A stretch of 64,000 nucleotides of DNA from Erwinia sp. HDF1-3R (GTDB lineage Bacteria > Pseudomonadota > Gammaproteobacteria > Enterobacterales > Enterobacteriaceae): NCBI RefSeq assembly GCF_039621855.1, contig NZ_CP155071.1:62001-126000 (forward strand), given 5' to 3'. Both the position numbers and the translations under genes were made by a program. A model generated the notes under the pieces. The model saw only the letters and a program-made list of their open reading frames with translations. It was not told where the DNA came from and did not search any database. This document shows positions 7,960-57,295 of the stretch, in pieces (the stretch's first letter is position 1; the number at the start of each line of letters is the position of its first letter).

Positions 7960-8676
7960 ATGCGTCCAGCAGGCCGAAGCGCACAGCAGGTGCGTCCCGT
8001 CACACTGACCCGTCATTATACCAAACATGCAGAAGGCTCTGTTCTGGTCGAATTCGGTGATACTAAAGTTTTGTGTACTGCCACTATTGATGAGGGTGTA
8101 CCCCGTTTCCTGAAAGGTCAGGGACAGGGTTGGGTGACCGCCGAGTACGGCATGCTGCCACGCGCGACGCACAGTCGCAACGCGCGTGAAGCCGCCAAAG
8201 GTAAGCAGGGTGGTCGTACGCTTGAAATTCAGCGACTGATCGCGCGCTCCCTTCGCGCCGCACTGGATCTTAAGGCGCTGGGCGAGTTTACCGTCACCCT
8301 CGACTGTGATGTGTTGCAGGCGGATGGCGGCACGCGTACCGCATCAATTACCGGCGCCTGCGTTGCGCTGGCGGATGCGCTTAACCATCTGGTGGCCATT
8401 GGTAAACTCAAAGCCAACCCGATGAAAGGCATGGTGGCGGCGGTATCCGTAGGGATCGTGAAGGGTGAAGCGCTCTGTGATTTGGAATACGTAGAGGACT
8501 CCGCTGCTGAAACCGATATGAATGTGGTGATGACTGAAGATGGCCGCATGATTGAGGTGCAGGGCACCGCAGAGGGTGAGCCCTTCACTCATGAGGAGCT
8601 GTTAACGCTGCTCGCACTGGCCCGGGGCGGTATTGACACCCTTATTCAGGCGCAGAAAGCCGCGCTAACAGACTGA
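7960..8676 (+). CDS. rph: Ribonuclease PH
   Basis: Phosphorolytic 3'-5' exoribonuclease that trims tRNA 3' ends, working as a hexamer in the cytoplasm. All 238 residues are present and match E. coli wild-type Rph: '[15 protein letters not shown]', '[15 protein letters not shown]', '[18 protein letters not shown]' and '[17 protein letters not shown]'. The start at 7960 has GGAGAGA upstream; an ATG 13 codons earlier is less likely. The 3' end is intact, unlike the K-12 rph-1 allele. It is followed 53 bp later by pyrE, with the attenuator hairpin between them. Confidence 0.97.
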
Positions 8677-8682
8677 TATTTC

Positions 8683-8707
8683 AGGCGGCCACAGGGTCGC
8701 CTTTTTT
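8683..8707 (+). promoter_or_regulatory. pyrE attenuator hairpin
   Basis: An eight-base-pair stem with loop ACAG (arms 8683-8690 and 8695-8702) followed by TTTTTT sits between rph and pyrE. In E. coli the same arrangement couples pyrE transcription to UTP supply through translation of the rph end. Confidence 0.8.
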
Positions 8708-8729
8708 ATGACTATGTGAGGATCGAGAC

Positions 8730-9371
8730 ATGAAAGCCTGGCAGCGCCAATTTATCGAATTCGCCATCAACAAGCAGGTGCTGAAGTTTGGTGAATTCAC
8801 GCTGAAATCAGGGCGTAAAAGCCCCTATTTCTTCAATGCGGGCCTGTTTAATACCGGTCGCGACCTTGCCCTGCTGGGGCGTTTTTACGCGCAGGCCCTG
8901 ATTGACTCCGGTATTGATTTCGACCTGGTCTTTGGCCCCGCTTATAAAGGGATCCCGATAGCCACCACGACGGCAGTCGCCCTGGCCGATCACCATGACC
9001 GCGATGTTCCCTACTGCTTTAACCGTAAAGAAGCAAAGGATCATGGCGAGGGAGGACTGCTGGTCGGTAGCCCGCTACAGGGGCGAATTATGCTGGTCGA
9101 TGATGTGATCACTGCGGGAACCGCGATTCGTGAATCCATGGAAATTATTGCGGCTCACCAGGCTACGCTGGCCGGAGTGTTAATCTCTCTCGACCGCCAG
9201 GAGCGCGGGCGCGGCAGTGAGTCGGCTATCCAGGAAGTGGAACGCGACTACGGCTGTAAGGTGATTTCGATTATCACGCTAAAAGAGCTGATTACTTACC
9301 TGGAAGAGAAGCCCGAGCTGGCCGACCACCTGGTGGCGGTACGCGCCTACCGTAAAGAATACGGTATCTGA
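8730..9371 (+). CDS. pyrE: Orotate phosphoribosyltransferase
   Basis: Makes orotidine 5'-phosphate from orotate and PRPP in pyrimidine synthesis. The 213 residues match E. coli PyrE, with the PRPP-binding loop '[17 protein letters not shown]' at about residues 120-136, the flexible loop '[12 protein letters not shown]' near residue 100 and the conserved 'FGPAYKGIP'. It is cotranscribed with rph and subject to the attenuator described before it. A bidirectional terminator separates it from slmA. Confidence 0.98.
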
Positions 9372-10001: not shown

Positions 10002-10120
10002 GTCCTGTAAGACCCCTGAAATATCACCTTGAACGGCAAATTGCCACGCAACATCCGTGAGCAACATGCTCACGGTGGAATAAAGACAAGTTAATCGCTA
10101 TAGGAGCGGATGAGGCGATG

Positions 10121-50073: not shown

Positions 50074-50832
50074 ATGAACGCTAAAATCGCACTGATTACC
50101 GGCGGAAGCCGGGGATTAGGTAGAAATTCTGCCTTAAAACTCGCTAAAAAGGGTGTTGATATCATCCTGACCTGGCGGAGCGGTGAACAGGACGCACAGC
50201 GGGTGGTGGATGAAATCACCGCGCTGGGTGGGCGTGCAGCGGCTATCCAGCTGGATGTGGCCGACAGCAGTCGCTTCGACGACTTCGCAGAGAGTGTACA
50301 AAATAAACTCAGCGAGGTGTGGCAGCGCGAAACCTTTGATTATTTAATCAACAACGCCGGAACGGGCCTGCATGTAGCCTTTGTTGAAACCAGCGAAGCG
50401 CAGTTCGATGAGATGGTTAACGTCCATTTCAAAGGCCCATTTTTTCTCACGCAGAAGCTACTGCCGCTTATTACGGACGGCGGACGTATTTTGAATATCT
50501 CCAGCGGCCTGGCCCGTTTCAGTCAGCCAGGTTCCAGCGCCTACGCGGCAGTTAAAGGTGCCATGGAGGTCCTGACCCGCTATCAGGCGAAAGAGCTGGG
50601 CGCACGCGGCATTACTGTGAATATCCTGGCCCCCGGGGCGATTGAAACGGATTTCGGCGGCGGCAGGGTACGTGATAATCCTGAGGTTAACGCCTTTATC
50701 GCGGCACAGACGGCTCTGGGCAGGGTAGGACTGCCGGATGATATTGGCAATGCAATAGCACAAATTCTGAGCGACGAAAGTGGCTGGATCAACGGACAGC
50801 GTATTGAAGCTTCCGGCGGCATGTTTCTCTGA
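50074..50832 (+). CDS. SDR family oxidoreductase
   Basis: NAD(P)-dependent short-chain dehydrogenase of 252 residues. The cofactor motif 'ALITGGSRGLGRNSALKLAK' is at the N-terminus, 'LINNAGTGLH' the NNAG motif, and 'SAYAAVKGAM' the YxxxK catalytic pair, preceded by the Ser of 'ILNISSGLA'. The start at 50074 follows GGAGAAG; an earlier in-frame start is weaker. Divergent from the LysR gene, which probably controls it. Substrate unknown. Confidence 0.88.
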   Translation: MNAKIALITGGSRGLGRNSALKLAKKGVDIILTWRSGEQDAQRVVDEITALGGRAAAIQLDVADSSRFDDFAESVQNKLSEVWQRETFDYLINNAGTGLHVAFVETSEAQFDEMVNVHFKGPFFLTQKLLPLITDGGRILNISSGLARFSQPGSSAYAAVKGAMEVLTRYQAKELGARGITVNILAPGAIETDFGGGRVRDNPEVNAFIAAQTALGRVGLPDDIGNAIAQILSDESGWINGQRIEASGGMFL

Positions 50833-50929
50833 TACAGCAAAGTCACCTTACGACCTGATTTGGTTAAATGCCCCGGTTTGCGCCATAGTAGAAGTTCTTT
50901 GGGAAGTCATAACCTGGGAGTATCACACT

Positions 50930-51553
50930 ATGTTGAAAATACTGGGGCGCGCCTCATCGATTAACGTCAGAAAGGTGCTGTGGGTTTGCGATGAGCTGGA
51001 TATCGCTTTTAATCGCGAGGAGTGGGGCGACGGTTTTAAGTCGCTTCAGGACCCGGCATTCAGAAAGATGAATCCTAATGGGCTGATCCCGGTGATTCAG
51101 GACGGGGATTTCATTATGTGGGAGTCCAACGCCATAATTCGCTACCTGGCTAACAGCCGGGGCGGTGACTGGATCTATCCGCAGGATCCCCGCGCGCGGG
51201 CGCCAGTCGACCAGTGGATCGACTGGCAGGCCACCGAACTCAATACCGCCTGGCGATACGCGTTTATGTCGCTGGTTCGTCACTCTCCGGCACATCAGGA
51301 TGCGCGCTTGCTTGCCGCCGCCTGTAAGGGCTGGTCGCATACCATGGGGATCCTGAATCAGCAGCTGGAACGTACCCAGGCCTGGGTGGCCGGCAGCGCA
51401 TTTTCACTGGCCGACATACCGGTTGGGCTATCCGTTAACCGCTGGTATGAAACCCCGTTAGACCACCCAGAACTGCCCGCCGTTAGGGCCTATTATGAGC
51501 GGCTGACTCAGCGAAAAGGCTATGCCAAATGGGGACGTAACGGCACGCCTTAA
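50930..51553 (+). CDS. Glutathione S-transferase family protein
   Basis: Cytoplasmic GST-like protein of 207 residues. The thioredoxin-fold N-terminal domain shows 'ILGRASSINVRKVLWVCDEL', the cis-Pro region 'MNPNGLIPVIQDGDF' and the glutathione-binding 'MWESNAIIRYLAN'. The helical C-terminal domain has 'GSAFSLADIPVGLSVNRWY' and ends 'KWGRNGTP'. The start at 50930 has GGGAG upstream. Its last 48 coding bases recur twice downstream and form the boundary of the toxin-immunity modules. Confidence 0.9.
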   Translation: MLKILGRASSINVRKVLWVCDELDIAFNREEWGDGFKSLQDPAFRKMNPNGLIPVIQDGDFIMWESNAIIRYLANSRGGDWIYPQDPRARAPVDQWIDWQATELNTAWRYAFMSLVRHSPAHQDARLLAAACKGWSHTMGILNQQLERTQAWVAGSAFSLADIPVGLSVNRWYETPLDHPELPAVRAYYERLTQRKGYAKWGRNGTP

Positions 51554-51712
51554 CGTGAGGGCTGCACTTTTGAAACCCTGGCGGAGTCAGCCTGGTTTAA
51601 ATCCCGGTTTGCCGTTAGCTGCACGCCATTCCTTCACCTCTTTTACGATACCTTCGGGACTATCTTCCCTGCTATCATCAGGGTAATAGATTAGGTCAGA
51701 TCCCGAAGGGTG
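51506..51712. repeat. GST-tail/immunity repeat, copy 1
   Basis: 207 bp that recur without a difference I can see at 52593-52799. The unit contains the last 48 bp of the GST gene, the spacer, and the 3' half of an immunity gene on the opposite strand. Confidence 0.95.
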
Positions 51713-51844
51713 TTCAGATAGTTTTTCAAATTCAGCGACTAATTTATCATCTTCCTTTTCTGTCGCTCCTTCTGCCCGGCAAATTTTTTGGACAAATGCC
51801 TGAAATTCAGCTTCGGTATAATCAGAAATCGTTTTTTTTTGCAT
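51587..51844 (-). CDS. Im-type nuclease-bacteriocin immunity protein (orphan module)
   Basis: Immunity protein of 85 residues of the colicin E2/E7/E8/E9 Im family, which binds and blocks HNH DNase domains. It starts [14 protein letters not shown] and has the invariant helix III block '[15 protein letters not shown]' and the end '[16 protein letters not shown]'. The helix I-II region (about residues 20-42), which sets specificity in this family, differs strongly from the second immunity protein in this window, while residues 43-85 are identical. It follows the frameshifted orphan nuclease by one base. It may still protect the cell against the matching toxin. Confidence 0.88.
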
Positions 51845-51845
51845 C

Positions 51846-52592
51846 TCACTTTTCTCCTTTATGAATTTCTATATGGCGTTTGGGTGTTGTTACGCGAATA
51901 TTATCAATGAAGTACACGGCTCCATTATCTTTAATGCTTTGTACATGATGTAACTCGAACCGTTTCCTTGCTCCCACACTCTCTATTTTTTTACAAATGG
52001 AGACTTACTACTTTTTATATTCACCTGGTTCTGTTTATTAAACTGTTTACTTAACTCAGGATCTTTCCCTACTTCCAGCCAGAAGGCCTTACGGAACGCA
52101 TCAAAGCTGCTGAATTCTCGCCCCAGCAATCTCTCCGCTATCTGGCCTGGGATTGGTGCGCCAGGCCCCTGCCCGGCTTTATTCAGCCAATCTGTGCCGA
52201 CATTTTCACCTTTCCCACTGACCCGGCCTGGCCTGTCGCGGGGGCTACTTATTACGACATAAATGGGCACGACGCCCGTACCGGACGCATCTGGCCGCCA
52301 ATAAATAAAGTCCTGCAGATGCTGCGTATTTCCTACAGGCGGTGACAGGGTGATATTACCCACCGGTTTCACATCCGTGCCAGTGTGCACCGGTGTGTTC
52401 GGAACCGGCCCCCAATTGCCCGTATCCGAAGGTTTTGCGGATTCCGGAACAGGATTTATCAGGATAGTTCGCGGCGGTGTGCCCGGCATTGCCGGAAGTC
52501 TGATGATATCCAGCCCGCTCACCGCATCGCGCACCGCATTTAGCACCGGCACCGCGGCGGGTACATTATCCCCGGTTTTCAGCAGCTTCAGT
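51846..52592 (-). pseudogene. Orphan nuclease-bacteriocin C-terminal module
   Basis: Truncated copy of the bacteriocin downstream of the intact one. The frame from 52592 carries the end of the pyocin-S-like domain and the start of the DNase domain ('GQIAERLLGREFSSFDAFRK'), then stops at a TAG (51990s) after a run of seven A. One frame over, the HNH core continues: '[20 protein letters not shown]', then '[20 protein letters not shown]', to a TGA at 51846-51848. The N-terminal half and promoter are missing; its 5' side is joined directly to a GST tail. It shares about 554 bp with the intact gene (52041-52594 with 53129-53682) at near identity. Confidence 0.85.
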
Positions 52593-52799
52593 ACTCAGCG
52601 AAAAGGCTATGCCAAATGGGGACGTAACGGCACGCCTTAACGTGAGGGCTGCACTTTTGAAACCCTGGCGGAGTCAGCCTGGTTTAAATCCCGGTTTGCC
52701 GTTAGCTGCACGCCATTCCTTCACCTCTTTTACGATACCTTCGGGACTATCTTCCCTGCTATCATCAGGGTAATAGATTAGGTCAGATCCCGAAGGGTG
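52593..52799. repeat. GST-tail/immunity repeat, copy 2
   Basis: Second copy of the 207-bp repeat. At its left edge it is fused at an AC dinucleotide to the middle of the orphan bacteriocin gene, so the GST tail here has no GST gene before it. Confidence 0.95.
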
Positions 52800-52931
52800 C
52801 TCGCTTAACCGCTTAAACTCCAGGATATTGTTTATATCTTCTCCTTCTGTCGTATTCTGGACGTTAATTATTTTTTCCACAAAAGCCAAAAACTCGGCTT
52901 CGGTGTAGTCAGATAACGTTTTCTTTTCCAT
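52674..52931 (-). CDS. Im-type immunity protein (cognate to intact bacteriocin)
   Basis: Im-family inhibitor of 85 residues, [17 protein letters not shown] at the N-terminus and '[15 protein letters not shown]' in helix III. It differs from the other immunity protein in residues about 20-42, the specificity helix region. I start it at 52929-52931, where GGGAG lies nine bases upstream; it begins one base after the bacteriocin stop, the usual toxin-immunity coupling. It should bind the adjoining HNH domain and protect the producer. Confidence 0.9.
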   Translation of the reverse strand: MEKKTLSDYTEAEFLAFVEKIINVQNTTEGEDINNILEFKRLSEHPSGSDLIYYPDDSREDSPEGIVKEVKEWRAANGKPGFKPG

Positions 52932-52932
52932 C

Positions 52933-54369
52933 TTATTTACTCCCTTTATGGTTCTCAATATGACACTTCGGAGTCGTTACACGAATATTGTCAATATTAT
53001 ATATCTCACCATTATCTTTAATCGGTTTTACATGGTGTAACTCATATTTAACACGCCGCCCCTTTTGTTCACTCTCTTTAGGTGCGGGTGCTTTGCCAGC
53101 CCGGATATTACCCAAGTTACCTGCCTTGAACTGTTTACTTAACTCAGGATCTTTCCCTACTTCCAGCCAGAAGGCCTTACGGAACGCATCAAAGCTGCTG
53201 AATTCTCGCCCCAGCAATCTCTCCGCTATCTGGCCTGGGATTGGTGCGCCAGGCCCCTGCCCGGCTTTATTCAGCCAATCTGTGCCGACATTTTCACCTT
53301 TCCCACTGACCCGACCCGGCCTGTCGCGGGGGCCGCTTATTACGACATAAATGGGCACGACGCCCGTACCGGACGCATCTGGCCGCCAATAAATAAAGTC
53401 CTGCAGATGCTGCGTATTTCCTACAGGCGGTGACAGGGTGATATTACCCACCGGTTTCACATCCGTGCCAGTGTGCACCGGTGTGTTCGGAACCGGCCCC
53501 CAATTGCCCGTATCCGAAGGTTTTGCGGATTCCGGAACAGGATTTATCAGGATAGTTCGCGGCGGTGTGCCCGGCATTGCCGGAAGTCTGATGATATCCA
53601 GCCCGCTCACCGCATCGCGCACCGCATTTAGCACCGGCACCGCGGCGGGTACATTATCCCCGGTTTTCAGCAGCTCCAGTACCATTTCACCGTTGCGTTC
53701 AATCAGCGCGCCCCGTACCGGCAGATTGATACTCGCTGAGCCTGGATTGATTTTTCTCTGACCGGCCAGTAGCCTGGCATTTAGCGCAAACATTGCTTCC
53801 GTGTCCCGTCCCGGAACACGGTCGCTGCCTTTTCCTGCCTGGGATGAGAACAGTAAAACTGAAGCGGCAGCTGCCATCGGCCCCAGGCTACTGGCGGTCA
53901 GCAATGCTACAGCGCGGCTGACTGCTGAGGTCAGCATGCCGCCAATCTCTCCGGCAAGCGTCATCACGCCCTCTCCGGCCACCGAAAGAAGCATACTCCA
54001 CTGCCCGCTGCTCAGCAGCATCGCCCCCGGAGCACTCAGCATCAGCGCAGCGGTATCAGCCTGCTCCTGCGTGTAGGCAGGCGCCGGAAGCTGCCCCGTC
54101 AGCAAAGTCACGGCCACTTTCTGCTCGGCCTTTGTGCAAAAACATATTGCCACGCCATACTCGTCGCCCCTGTCCATCACCCATGTCCAACCGAGTGCGT
54201 TAAGGTTCTTCAGATAGCAGGCTTTTGTTTGTGATTTGAACTGGAACTTGCCGTCGCCGAGGTCGGTGACGAGGGGTTCAGCAGGGTGATTTTCGGGACC
54301 CGTGGTGATGACTTTTCCAGAGGCATCGTAAGGTACACCATCTTTGTAATAGGCAGGAATTATTGACAT
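52933..54369 (-). CDS. S-type pyocin-like HNH nuclease bacteriocin
   Basis: Toxin of 478 residues. Residues 1-100 are an unrecognised N-terminal part; about 115-180 form a hydrophobic, glycine- and alanine-rich stretch. Residues about 190-335 resemble the pyocin S translocation domain ('PVRGALIERNGEMVLELLKT', 'FIYWRPDASGTGVVPIYVVI'). The DNase domain starts near 345 ('GKGENVGTDWLNKAGQGPGA') and has the HNH residues in 'YELHHVKPIKDNGEIYNIDN' and 'TPKCHIENHKG'. It resembles the colicin E9 end. No receptor-binding domain, signal peptide, lysis gene or LexA box is evident, so the delivery route is open; type VI secretion is possible. Confidence 0.85.
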   Translation of the reverse strand: MSIIPAYYKDGVPYDASGKVITTGPENHPAEPLVTDLGDGKFQFKSQTKACYLKNLNALGWTWVMDRGDEYGVAICFCTKAEQKVAVTLLTGQLPAPAYTQEQADTAALMLSAPGAMLLSSGQWSMLLSVAGEGVMTLAGEIGGMLTSAVSRAVALLTASSLGPMAAAASVLLFSSQAGKGSDRVPGRDTEAMFALNARLLAGQRKINPGSASINLPVRGALIERNGEMVLELLKTGDNVPAAVPVLNAVRDAVSGLDIIRLPAMPGTPPRTILINPVPESAKPSDTGNWGPVPNTPVHTGTDVKPVGNITLSPPVGNTQHLQDFIYWRPDASGTGVVPIYVVISGPRDRPGRVSGKGENVGTDWLNKAGQGPGAPIPGQIAERLLGREFSSFDAFRKAFWLEVGKDPELSKQFKAGNLGNIRAGKAPAPKESEQKGRRVKYELHHVKPIKDNGEIYNIDNIRVTTPKCHIENHKGSK

Positions 54370-54620
54370 TTTTCATCCTTTTTGTGGTATCCGGTGGCCT
54401 ACACTCAGGGCATCAGGTGTACTGACCAGATAGTTCCTTTGATTTATACTGAATATAAAAGGGTCTTCTTCGATCATGGTGGCTTAGGATAAAGCGTTTT
54501 TTTATAGTTCTTAATATGCCAGGATGCTATAAGGTGTTGCCTTGATAGCCGAATTTTGATTTAAAACAATACTCCCAACCTCAACCTGATTTGATTGAAA
54601 AGGTAAAATATTATGCCAGC

Positions 54621-54905
54621 ATGTTCTGGACTTTCTTCTTGTCTTTCCAGCCCCCAATACCCAGAGAATGTAAAGACACATATACTAGCGTTAAGCAGCA
54701 AAGAATCGGCGATTATGATGTTTCTCATTCCAGCCAGAAAGATATCCGTCCTGCTAACAGAAGCAAGGCAAATACCAGAATATCAGCAAAAGAGTTAGTA
54801 TTTGCGCGTTCTCTTTTAAGAGAGCTGGGTATAACAAAAAATCCTTATCAAGATCCCACTGTGAAATCAAATAATTGTGGCATGCCTTATTTCCCAGTAA
54901 TGTAG
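54621..54905 (+). CDS. Hypothetical small protein
   Basis: A frame of 94 residues (from MFWTFFLSFQPP to 'NNCGMPYFPVM') between the bacteriocin promoter region and the ISL3 relic. The N-terminus is slightly hydrophobic; the rest is basic and polar ('FARSLLRELGITKNPYQDP'). I do not recognise it, and the ribosome site (AAGG) is distant. It may be a real gene of the toxin locus or the 3' relic of a longer one. Confidence 0.3.
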   Translation: MFWTFFLSFQPPIPRECKDTYTSVKQQRIGDYDVSHSSQKDIRPANRSKANTRISAKELVFARSLLRELGITKNPYQDPTVKSNNCGMPYFPVM

Positions 54906-54920
54906 TAAAATATCCATATA

Positions 54921-55433
54921 TCATAATGCCATATTTAGCCTGCCGTAATGAAACATTTCAGCCACCTCGAAGCGTTCTCTGTTTCGATATCCGCGCGCCT
55001 TTATCCTGAGCAGCCCTATTTTACTGTTCAGGAACTCCGCATTACCATTCGATACCCGGTTTTTCATTGCATTCAGGATGCCGTAAAGGCGCTTTGTCAC
55101 CAGGTGGGCAACTTTAACCTCTCAGTCCGGCGTCCGAGCGGTTTTGATGGATGCGGGCTGCACTGATACAGGCCATATTCATGTCCATCGACAGCGTTTT
55201 TATATCATCCAGTTGATGATCTCTCAGAGCACGCATCAAGGTGACGCCATTTACGACGTTGGTGATCATGTACGGGGCAAGGTTTACCACAGGTTGGACA
55301 GGTAAGTGGAGTGTGCTCAGCAATGCCGACAATCAACGTCACTGAGCCAGATTTTTCAATCAAGAGAAAAAGATTTTACCTGTCACGCGGCTGACAGATT
55401 AAGGATATGGGCATAGAGGGACTTATCGTCCAT
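54921..55433 (-). mobile_element. ISL3-family transposase relic
   Basis: Pieces of one transposase in order on the minus strand. The start MDDKSLYAHILNLSAA is at 55433, then a zinc motif '[20 protein letters not shown]' near 55262-55325, then '[20 protein letters not shown]'. The C-terminal 'LYGILNAMKNRVSNGNAEFL' and 'RIKARGYRNRERFEVAEMFH' run to a TGA at 54921-54923. Stops and frame changes separate them, and most of the 400-residue protein is deleted. No terminal inverted repeats were found. Confidence 0.7.
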
Positions 55434-55574
55434 GGCAGGCTCCTCAGAAAATCAAGACTGCCATCATAATGCCCTTAGCCTGCACAACAGGGGAATACCC
55501 ATCTAAAAACAGTAAATTGGGATGCCATCTTTCGTCCTCCGGTCAGTCAAATGAGATTTTATTACGCTGGGCGT

Positions 55575-55696
55575 CAGGCCCGGCATACAGAAAGAAGAAT
55601 CCTGATGGTCCGATCCTGGCGATTCAGGAGGGGGATTATGGGCGGCTGACTCAGCGAAAAGGCTATGCCAAATGGGGACGTAACGGCACGCCTTAG
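55575..55696 (+). pseudogene. Deleted GST copy with GST-tail repeat, copy 3
   Basis: The frame reads 'PAYRKKNPDGPILAIQEGDY', the diverged equivalent of residues about 44-63 of the intact GST. It then jumps in frame to 'RLTQRKGYAKWGRNGTP', the exact GST end. The last 59 bp (55637-55695) match the intact gene with one difference, whereas the upstream part is clearly diverged. Confidence 0.8.
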
Positions 55697-55707: not shown

Positions 55708-57159
55708 CTACGGTGGGGCAATGCCGCTCATTTCACAGGCCAGCGCGCCGGTCCGCTTCAACGCATAGGTGTAGCGCTCATCAAATGGGTAACAGCAGGA
55801 GAGACGCAGCGCACTGTTGCAGCGATCGCTAAGGGTATAGAGCGCGCCGGGGGTCAGGCATATTTTCTCCTGTAGAAGCCGGTGAAACAGCTGCACGCTA
55901 TCGACGTTATCCGGCAGCTCAACCCAGAAGACAAAGCCGCCGCTGGGCAGCGTTGCCCGCGTTCCCTGGGGAAAGTGCCGGGCGATGATGCTCCGAGCCT
56001 CATCAAGCTGTGCGGCATAGCGGCGGCGCAGCGTGCGCAGATGGTGGTCGTAGCCACCTGATTCCAGAAAATGGCCCAGCGTTTCTGAAAGCAGGCGCGA
56101 TTCCGTCAGGGAAGAGACCGATTTCAGCCGGGCCAGCTTTCCGGTAAAGCGTCCTGCGGCAATCCATCCAACGTGGAAATCGGGTGCAACCGTTTTAGTG
56201 AAGCTGGTGCAGTAGAGAACCCACCCCTCCCGATCGAAGGCTTTTACCGCGGGTGATAGCGGCCAGCAGAATTGCAGTTCGCCGTAAAGGCCGTCCTCAA
56301 TCAGCGGCACCTGATAGCGGTTGACCATCTCCGCCAGACGCTTTTTCTCCTCCAGTTTCATGCTGCATCCCAGCGGGTTTTGCACGGTCGGCATGGCGAC
56401 GATAGCCTGAATGCGCCGCTCCTGGAGTAGCAGCTCCAGTGCATCCAGCGACAGGCCGAACTGGGGGTCAGTGGGGATCTCGATGACCCTCAGACCCAGG
56501 CTGGCCAGCAGGGGAAAGAGATAAAAATAGGTGGGGGTTTCAATGCCCACGCAGTCGCCGGGCTGAGTGACCGTTCGTAATGCCAGCTGGAGGGCTTCCA
56601 TGCAGCCATGCGTCAGCGTGATATCTTCCAGGGTAAGGCGGATACCCAGATCCATCGATCGGCGTGCCACTTCGCGCCTCAGGCGCTCGCTTCCGGGCGG
56701 CAGCGCGTAGCGCCCAATCAGCGACGGTTCGCGACGTAGCAGCGAGGCCATGATGCGGCTGATTTTTGCCGTAGGAAAAAAATCGCTGTTTTGCGGGCAG
56801 GCGAGCGAGATGTTGGTGTAGTCCGGGTGGTTCTGCGCGGCAAAAACGGCATCAATCAGATCCAGTTTCTCACTGCTGGGAGAGCGCACCTGTGCCTGGC
56901 GGTCACCCGAGGATTTTACTGACGGTAGTACGCTACGGACGTAATAGCCTGACTGAGGACGCGCTTCGATAAGTCCGCGATCCTCCAGAATCCGGTAGGC
57001 AGCCAATACGGTATTCACGCTGAGCTGGTGATTGCTGGCACAGCGGCGAATAGCGGGCAGACGGCTGCCAGGGGGATAGGTGCCAACGTGGATCGCTTCC
57101 GCCAGCGTCTGCGCCAGCTGCTGATACAGCGTACTTTCCTGCATATCAATAATGGACAC
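55708..57159 (-). CDS. MocR-type GntR/aminotransferase regulator
   Basis: Transcription regulator of about 483 residues: an N-terminal GntR winged helix ('TLYQQLAQTLAEAIHVGTYP', 'LSVNTVLAAYRILEDRGLIE') joined to a fold-type I aminotransferase domain. The pyridoxal phosphate lysine is in 'TSFTKTVAPDFHVGW'. The GTG at 57157-57159 has AAGGGAG eight bases upstream, so I prefer it to an ATG at 57213. It is divergent from a LysE exporter across about 135 bp containing the palindrome ATTACA-ATAG-TGTAAT, a possible operator. Effector unknown. Confidence 0.88.
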   Translation of the reverse strand: MSIIDMQESTLYQQLAQTLAEAIHVGTYPPGSRLPAIRRCASNHQLSVNTVLAAYRILEDRGLIEARPQSGYYVRSVLPSVKSSGDRQAQVRSPSSEKLDLIDAVFAAQNHPDYTNISLACPQNSDFFPTAKISRIMASLLRREPSLIGRYALPPGSERLRREVARRSMDLGIRLTLEDITLTHGCMEALQLALRTVTQPGDCVGIETPTYFYLFPLLASLGLRVIEIPTDPQFGLSLDALELLLQERRIQAIVAMPTVQNPLGCSMKLEEKKRLAEMVNRYQVPLIEDGLYGELQFCWPLSPAVKAFDREGWVLYCTSFTKTVAPDFHVGWIAAGRFTGKLARLKSVSSLTESRLLSETLGHFLESGGYDHHLRTLRRRYAAQLDEARSIIARHFPQGTRATLPSGGFVFWVELPDNVDSVQLFHRLLQEKICLTPGALYTLSDRCNSALRLSCCYPFDERYTYALKRTGALACEMSGIAPP

Positions 57160-57295
57160 AGTTAACGCTCCCTTAAGGGGGTACAGATGGGATAATTTGC
57201 AGATTGTACTCATTACAATAGTGTAATTGTGAGTCTGTTACCATTAGCGTGCCGCTTTTATTATGGTCATCTCATTCATCTGTCGGATAGCCACT

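Follow-up and report, generated by a model that had tools for sequence, protein, structure and literature searches.

A tandem repeat with two DNase-immunity modules at the boundary of a GST gene and a toxin gene in Erwinia sp. HDF1-3R

Orphan toxin modules are known from the Cdi and Rhs systems, where a start-less fragment of a toxin tip and an immunity gene (cdiA-CT/cdiI or rhs-CT/rhsI) lie 3′ of the full-length toxin gene (Poole et al., 2011, PMC3150448; Koskiniemi et al., 2014, PMC3967940). In Cdi systems an orphan immunity gene gives protection and an orphan tip can be transferred by recombination to the main gene; such recombination, with duplication, has been reported and modelled for Cdi and Rhs (PMC3150448, PMC3967940). 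Here we describe a similar arrangement in Erwinia sp. HDF1-3R, within a window of 64,000 nt (NZ_CP155071.1, assembly GCF_039621855.1, positions 62,001-126,000, forward strand; coordinates without a prefix are window positions, and L-numbers denote loci fetched from other places or genomes). A start-less toxin-tip fragment with an intact immunity gene, immB (module B), lies 3′ of a full-length DNase toxin gene with its own immunity gene, immA (module A), and the toxin gene is convergent to a GST-family gene whose 3′ end is repeated between the modules. We regard a tandem duplication across the GST/toxin boundary, together with allele exchange, as the best explanation, at a probability of about 0.72.

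Upstream of the tip, the shared homologous sequence measures 557 bp at 98.9% here and 522 bp at 95% in Salmonella rhs. Unlike the Cdi and Rhs cases, the toxin is a colicin/pyocin-type DNase, A and B represent alleles of a single fold, and the repeat includes the tail of a neighbouring gene. Displaced effector-immunity arrays of the type VI secretion system (T6SS) of V. cholerae are alike in that an old immunity gene is kept behind a new module (Kirchberger et al., 2017, PMC5361080); the authors argue against duplication on the grounds that array members differ in origin, whereas here the unit ends are near-identical. In the esaG arrays of S. aureus, too, tandem paralogues undergo homologous recombination by way of conserved blocks that surround variable segments (Garrett et al., 2022, PMC9484751), but these arrays hold immunity genes only and belong to a Gram-positive type VII secretion system. 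The locus follows a known style of weapon-gene evolution, with orphan Cdi/Rhs modules and displaced T6SS immunity arrays as its closest precedents. Among the titles and abstract starts listed by literature searches, at most 20 papers per search, none describes this locus or the repetition of a neighbouring gene's tail between modules of this sort. The locus would extend a process known for Cdi, Rhs and T6SS toxins to the colicin/pyocin-type class, and would give a base-level view of an orphan module forming beside such a nuclease gene: one joint, a specificity-limited allele exchange, then exchange between the repeats.

The tandem repeat and its joint

The intact GST-family gene (50930..51553, plus strand, 207 aa; Pfam GST_N_3, GST_N_2, GST_N and GST_C) ends in a 48-bp tail, 51506-51553. 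An earlier note on this DNA had pointed out three copies of this tail, the first at the end of the intact gene, and self-comparison of the window bears this out: copy 2 (52593-52640) is identical, and copy 3 (55649-55696) matches at 47 of 48 positions, with the stop codon TAG instead of TAA. The exact matches run on to 207 bp between copies 1 and 2 (51506-51712 and 52593-52799) and to 54 bp between copies 1 and 3, far beyond chance. Past the exact 207 bp lies a diverged segment, followed by 557 bp at 98.9% identity (52038-52594 and 53126-53682). The whole is a tandem duplication with a unit of ~1,087 bp that straddles the point where the convergent GST and toxin genes meet. Unit 1 (51506..52592) holds the GST tail, a spacer, immB, a broken DNase tip and part of the Pyocin_S domain; unit 2 (52593..53680) holds tail copy 2, a spacer, immA, the DNase tip and part of the main toxin.

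The end of unit 1 and the start of unit 2 meet in one non-homologous joint, 52592/52593, an illegitimate junction of mid-toxin sequence to GST tail. A duplication across the boundary keeps both GST and toxin intact and produces just this fusion, so copy 2 needs no role as a landing site, and judged from the sequence the repeated GST scraps are best read as by-products of duplication. Finding the tail of a gene repeated next to a module does not by itself indicate an attachment site. The earlier note had copy 2 fused to the middle of the orphan toxin gene; the joint stands, but the copy is not a stand-alone 48-bp tail, since it opens the 207-bp repeat within the larger duplication.

The same joint, identical in position, is present in a second strain, ErVv1 (Erwinia sp., L034), at L034:9317/9318 inside contiguous, gap-free sequence. 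Over 7.7 kb of flank ErVv1 and the window show 99.6% identity, and their GST proteins agree at 100%; a genome with the GST gene at ErVv1's place (G264) is listed as the same species. ErVv1 holds both modules, A at 99.8% identity over 584 bp and B at 98.6% over 585 bp. The first base after the joint differs between the strains (CCAG/GACTCAG in ErVv1, TCAG/TACTCAG in the window), so the AC microhomology proposed for 52593-52594 is not a shared junction feature.

Two alleles and exchange between the copies

The main toxin gene (52933..54369, minus strand) encodes 478 aa with a Pyocin_S domain (PF06958) and, at the C-terminus, a colicin/pyocin HNH DNase domain (PF21431, residues 352-475, E 3.1e-49). 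By sequence its solved relatives include colicin D, to which residues 88-357 align, klebicin G, colicins E2/E7/E9 and pyocin S2. As candidates for the receptor-binding and Tol/TonB translocation regions of a nuclease bacteriocin, the Pyocin_S domain and the stretch aligned to colicin D were observed. With colicins E2/E7/E9, pyocin S2 and klebicin G it has in common the HNH DNase domain and PF01320-type immunity, and Pyocin_S occurs in related toxins. Unlike these nuclease bacteriocins, it is only 478 aa long, its N-terminal ~200 aa have no Pfam or NCBIfam match and are unassigned, and between 50800 and 57847 there is no LexA-box match (CTGT-N8-ACAG, at most one mismatch). An upstream SOS (LexA) box is typical of nuclease bacteriocins, though not required of all members.

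Directly downstream, as for a cognate immunity gene, lies immA (52674..52931, minus strand, 85 aa from an ATG at 52931, immediately after the stop codon of the toxin, 52933-52935); a TTG-initiated open reading frame (ORF) extends to 52958, and it is this ORF that matches PF01320 at E 7.8e-36. The second immunity gene, immB (51587..51844, minus strand, 85 aa), matches PF01320 at E 3.1e-37, and its best solved relative is the colicin E2 immunity protein. Beside it, the orphan toxin fragment has no native toxin start; its longest ORF (51983..52552, minus strand, 189 aa) begins at an internal GTG and covers positions 1-80 of the 124 of Col-Pyo_DNase, and a frameshift precedes the HNH motif at a run of 7 T. 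ErVv1 has 8 T there and an open frame, and the frameshift may be a homopolymer sequencing error. That a toxin-immunity cassette had become an orphan, as first proposed, fits module B with its intact immB and start-less tip.

ImmA and ImmB agree at 22 of 39 positions in the N-terminal part and at 44 of 44 in the remaining C-terminal part. In that variable N-terminal part ImmB is closer to the colicin E2 immunity protein (29/39) than to ImmA, which makes B a separate allelic lineage; on the same ground we rejected the idea that B arose from A by local mutation. The DNase tip of A shares 76.7% identity with that of B, and just as much with the toxins P0005 and P0017. The units differ only in the segment of DNase tip and immunity specificity, which the exact 207-bp and the 98.9% 557-bp repeats flank. 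Divergence confined in this way points to cassette exchange or replacement by homologous recombination through the conserved flanks. Such an exchange could draw on 207 bp of homology at one end, of which 48 bp are GST, and on ~557 bp of toxin gene at the other end. The recombination that had been suspected in the array has thus left signs, in the form of divergence limited to the segment between conserved repeats.

All pieces of the window and ErVv1 were aligned to unit 2 to compare variable sites. At unit positions 815 and 830 both window copies have A and T, while the orphan and main pieces of ErVv1, which are separate, both have C and C. At positions 722, 725, 742 and 743 the window copies differ, and ErVv1 is covered there by one contig, possibly collapsed; each remaining variable site is either single-copy or module-linked. 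That the strain-specific positions 815 and 830 agree in both copies argues modestly for sequence exchange between the copies after the joint arose.

The ErVv1 scaffold has the modules in the opposite order to the window, with A next to GST and B adjoining the toxin body. The scaffold is a draft with seven N gaps (7765, 8350-8375, 8588-8805, 9065-9221, 9507, 10093-10107 and 10497), but the link from GST to A has to cross no more than ~110 shared bases (see variable positions 99 and 208) and may well be correct. We give a true swap of the A/B order in ErVv1 roughly even odds. P0001, a main toxin from a third strain (8 member sequences), carries tip A; it differs from the window and ErVv1 at residues 59 and 280 and has R290 and Q321 in common with ErVv1.

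Order of events and arrival of the island

The duplication reading would start from an S-type-pyocin/colicin-E-like DNase toxin gene and its immunity gene, convergent to GST. One illegitimate joint in the ancestor of both strains would then have produced the tandem duplication, after which a toxin 3′ fragment, its immunity gene and a GST tail would lie between an unbroken GST gene and a full-length toxin gene. A different DNase-tip/immunity allele would have entered one unit by homologous recombination, or in the same event if unit 2 was delivered by incoming DNA that had its anchor in the toxin gene. Later exchange between the repeats would homogenise the shared parts and possibly change which cassette sits on the full-length gene. 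By analogy with Cdi, where orphan modules protect and recombine, the orphan is probably spare immunity and a reservoir for switching.

Several observations weigh against this history. Tail copy 3 and the arrival of the island are not explained by it; the module swap depends on the gapped ErVv1 scaffold, where alone, across an N gap, tip B is seen on a main gene; the complete main toxins, those of the window and P0001, both have tip A; and of the sites with separate readings for all four copies only the two are concerted. Nor do these data separate duplication followed by exchange from insertion in one step. In the latter, a possible but less probable variant, an incoming stretch of GST tail, immunity gene, DNase tip and toxin body would have recombined by homology in the toxin body, with its other end joined illegitimately to mid-toxin sequence and the resident cassette orphaned. 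A single event would then yield the whole anatomy, including the two alleles and the one non-homologous joint, and homology-facilitated illegitimate recombination of this kind has been proposed for the T6SS arrays of V. cholerae, where it is described as rare (PMC5361080).

The third tail copy ends a GST relic (55579..55696, plus strand) that has lost the middle of the gene; its body is identical to the intact GST at 51 of 59 positions and its tail at 60 of 62. This is the deleted relic beside the MocR gene that had been reported from the sequence. In the window, differences from the intact GST number 8/59 in the body and 2/62 in the tail (Fisher p 0.05), and in ErVv1 7/59 and 0/62 (Fisher p 0.005), so that the relic tail and the intact tail may have recombined. 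The neighbouring MocR-like regulator (55708..57213, minus strand; GntR and Aminotran_1_2) is the direct neighbour of GST in relatives. Between the toxin and the relic lie remnants of an ISL3-family transposase (54921..55363, minus strand; PF01610 at 54921-55100 and PF14690 at 55205-55363).

To sample this site in relatives, a GST-protein scan was made, and the best 80 of 217 loci encoding a GST relative were retained: ErVv1, 37 enterobacterial loci (by title; L035-L071), and 42 mostly from Pseudomonas (L072-L113, of which L111 is enterobacterial). Queried with the toxin and immunity B proteins within the fetched DNA, none of the 79 loci other than ErVv1 gave a match. The tally of MocR adjacency covers L035-L071, and in all 37 GST lies directly beside MocR with no toxin; the relic therefore sits at the ancestral GST-MocR junction. 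Among a further 29 loci with 1.5-kb flanks, partly from the same species as the best 80, MocR follows GST within 100 bases in 26; two have no MocR adjoining GST (L014, L033), and one, L030, has another gene between them. As far as sampled, the toxin island at this site is specific to this species. The three-copy arrangement is thus not fixed in all relatives, the toxin being absent from 37 of 37 loci and the module order apparently swapped in ErVv1.

Copy 3 could be accounted for by a process complementary to the duplication, in which a circular or duplicated segment bearing GST recombined into the GST gene and left the relic as the original GST end. We hold this only tentatively and think it rather unlikely. 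The relic's place at the ancestral junction agrees with it, as do island-like pieces on plasmids: 1,847 of 72,556 plasmid records match part of the island, with no record covering 80% of it at one place. A donor with a GST segment was not seen, and the ISL3 remnants permit other histories. A stretch from a K. pasteurii plasmid has its ISL3 gene on the opposite side of the toxin, and two other fetched stretches are uninformative on the origin of the island.

The gene between GST and MocR in L030 (L030:606-1501, genome G005) is a different cargo, hydrolase-like by our ORF reading. The order is GST, a 39-base relic of the cargo 3′ end at 90% identity, a 24-mer matching the window's GST tail at 22 of 24 positions, and the intact cargo gene. 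The 24-mer has a local score of 20 when compared with the window tail and of 18 with the tail of L030 itself, while the highest score among 300 shuffles was 17, a test made post hoc. Within the searched span of L035-L071 there was no second tail-like copy above 27/48. As a duplicate of the same topology with unrelated cargo, L030 supports boundary duplication as a generic event; it can alternatively be read as repeated entry of cargo at this site, the idea of the earlier note. Copy 3 and the L030 cargo are compatible with a role of GST homology at the island's first entry. More speculatively, and with considerable doubt, the array could be a two-slot switch in which sister strains exchange tip A or B on the full-length toxin through the 207-bp and 557-bp repeats while both immunity genes are kept, and the GST-MocR boundary a recurrent acquisition site where duplication of the tail admits cargo without harm to GST.

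Tandem arrays elsewhere and the GST tail as landing site

Arrays of this kind also occur away from GST. L148, a second toxin locus of the window's genome, lies between other genes and has two tandem full-length S-type toxins (L148:6523-10000, spacing ~1,907 bp) whose N-terminal parts and upstream sequence are near-identical and whose tips differ, one of tRNase type (PF11429, P0113) and one of DNase type. Behind the tRNase-tip toxin are five tandem immunity genes (L148:4639-6819), by our own reading of colicin D type; in front of four of these stands a ~40-residue tRNase-tip remnant. This looks like a displaced-effector immunity array, and pieces of it are also found in ErVv1 (L162). Across the family, 28 of 198 genomes searched, the window's own included, had a match at 1e-10; eight loci from six of the 28 were selected for several matches or a close one. 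Six of these (L164-L169) have at least two DNase/immunity modules in tandem, in units that may also contain the tail of a flanking gene, and L170 and L171 have one.

The earlier note's interpretation was that the GST tail acts as a homologous landing site, each copy marking the entry of one cassette and older cassettes becoming orphans. Its orphan cassette and its signs of recombination hold, as does the absence of an integrase: among 12 island and flank proteins scanned with Pfam no integrase or recombinase was found, the ISL3 transposase remnants being the sole such trace, and integrase-type attachment at the GST tail was rejected for that reason. The landing site itself we consider improbable. 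Three tail copies do bound two modules, in ErVv1 the relic resembles the intact GST more closely in its tail (62/62) than in its body (52/59), which would fit recombination between tails, and L030 has different cargo and a GST-tail-like 24-mer at the same boundary. Against this, copy 2 follows from the tandem duplication, longer homology is available in the toxin gene, toxin arrays also stand elsewhere, both in this genome and in those of relatives, and a foreign cassette with GST tails on both sides is seen in no locus except the window and ErVv1. An assembly artefact, to which error-prone tandem repeats and the orphan's frameshift in a T run might point, was rejected as very improbable on the strength of the same gap-free junction in the independent ErVv1 assembly.

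For delivery of the toxin, the T6SS is also possible, given a T6SS_VasE (PF05936) homologue in the window's genome; against the T6SS effector family NF047924 (VPA1263 type) the toxin scored 144.5 bits, for a cut-off of 900, in its C-terminal part only. A terminator scan of the locus found 7, with 4.7 expected. Between the toxin and the ISL3 remnants lies an ORF of 104 aa (54591-54905, plus strand) with no Pfam or NCBIfam match. On the other side of the locus, the spacing between the SDR gene and GST is ~100 bp in the window (50832-50930) and in ErVv1, compared with about 1 kb in loci such as L035, L036 and L039. Elsewhere in the window's genome, L149 (C1:804000-813000) holds, by ORF reading, a series of Rhs-type C-terminal fragments, one of which has a colicin-like DNase tip interrupted by a stop.

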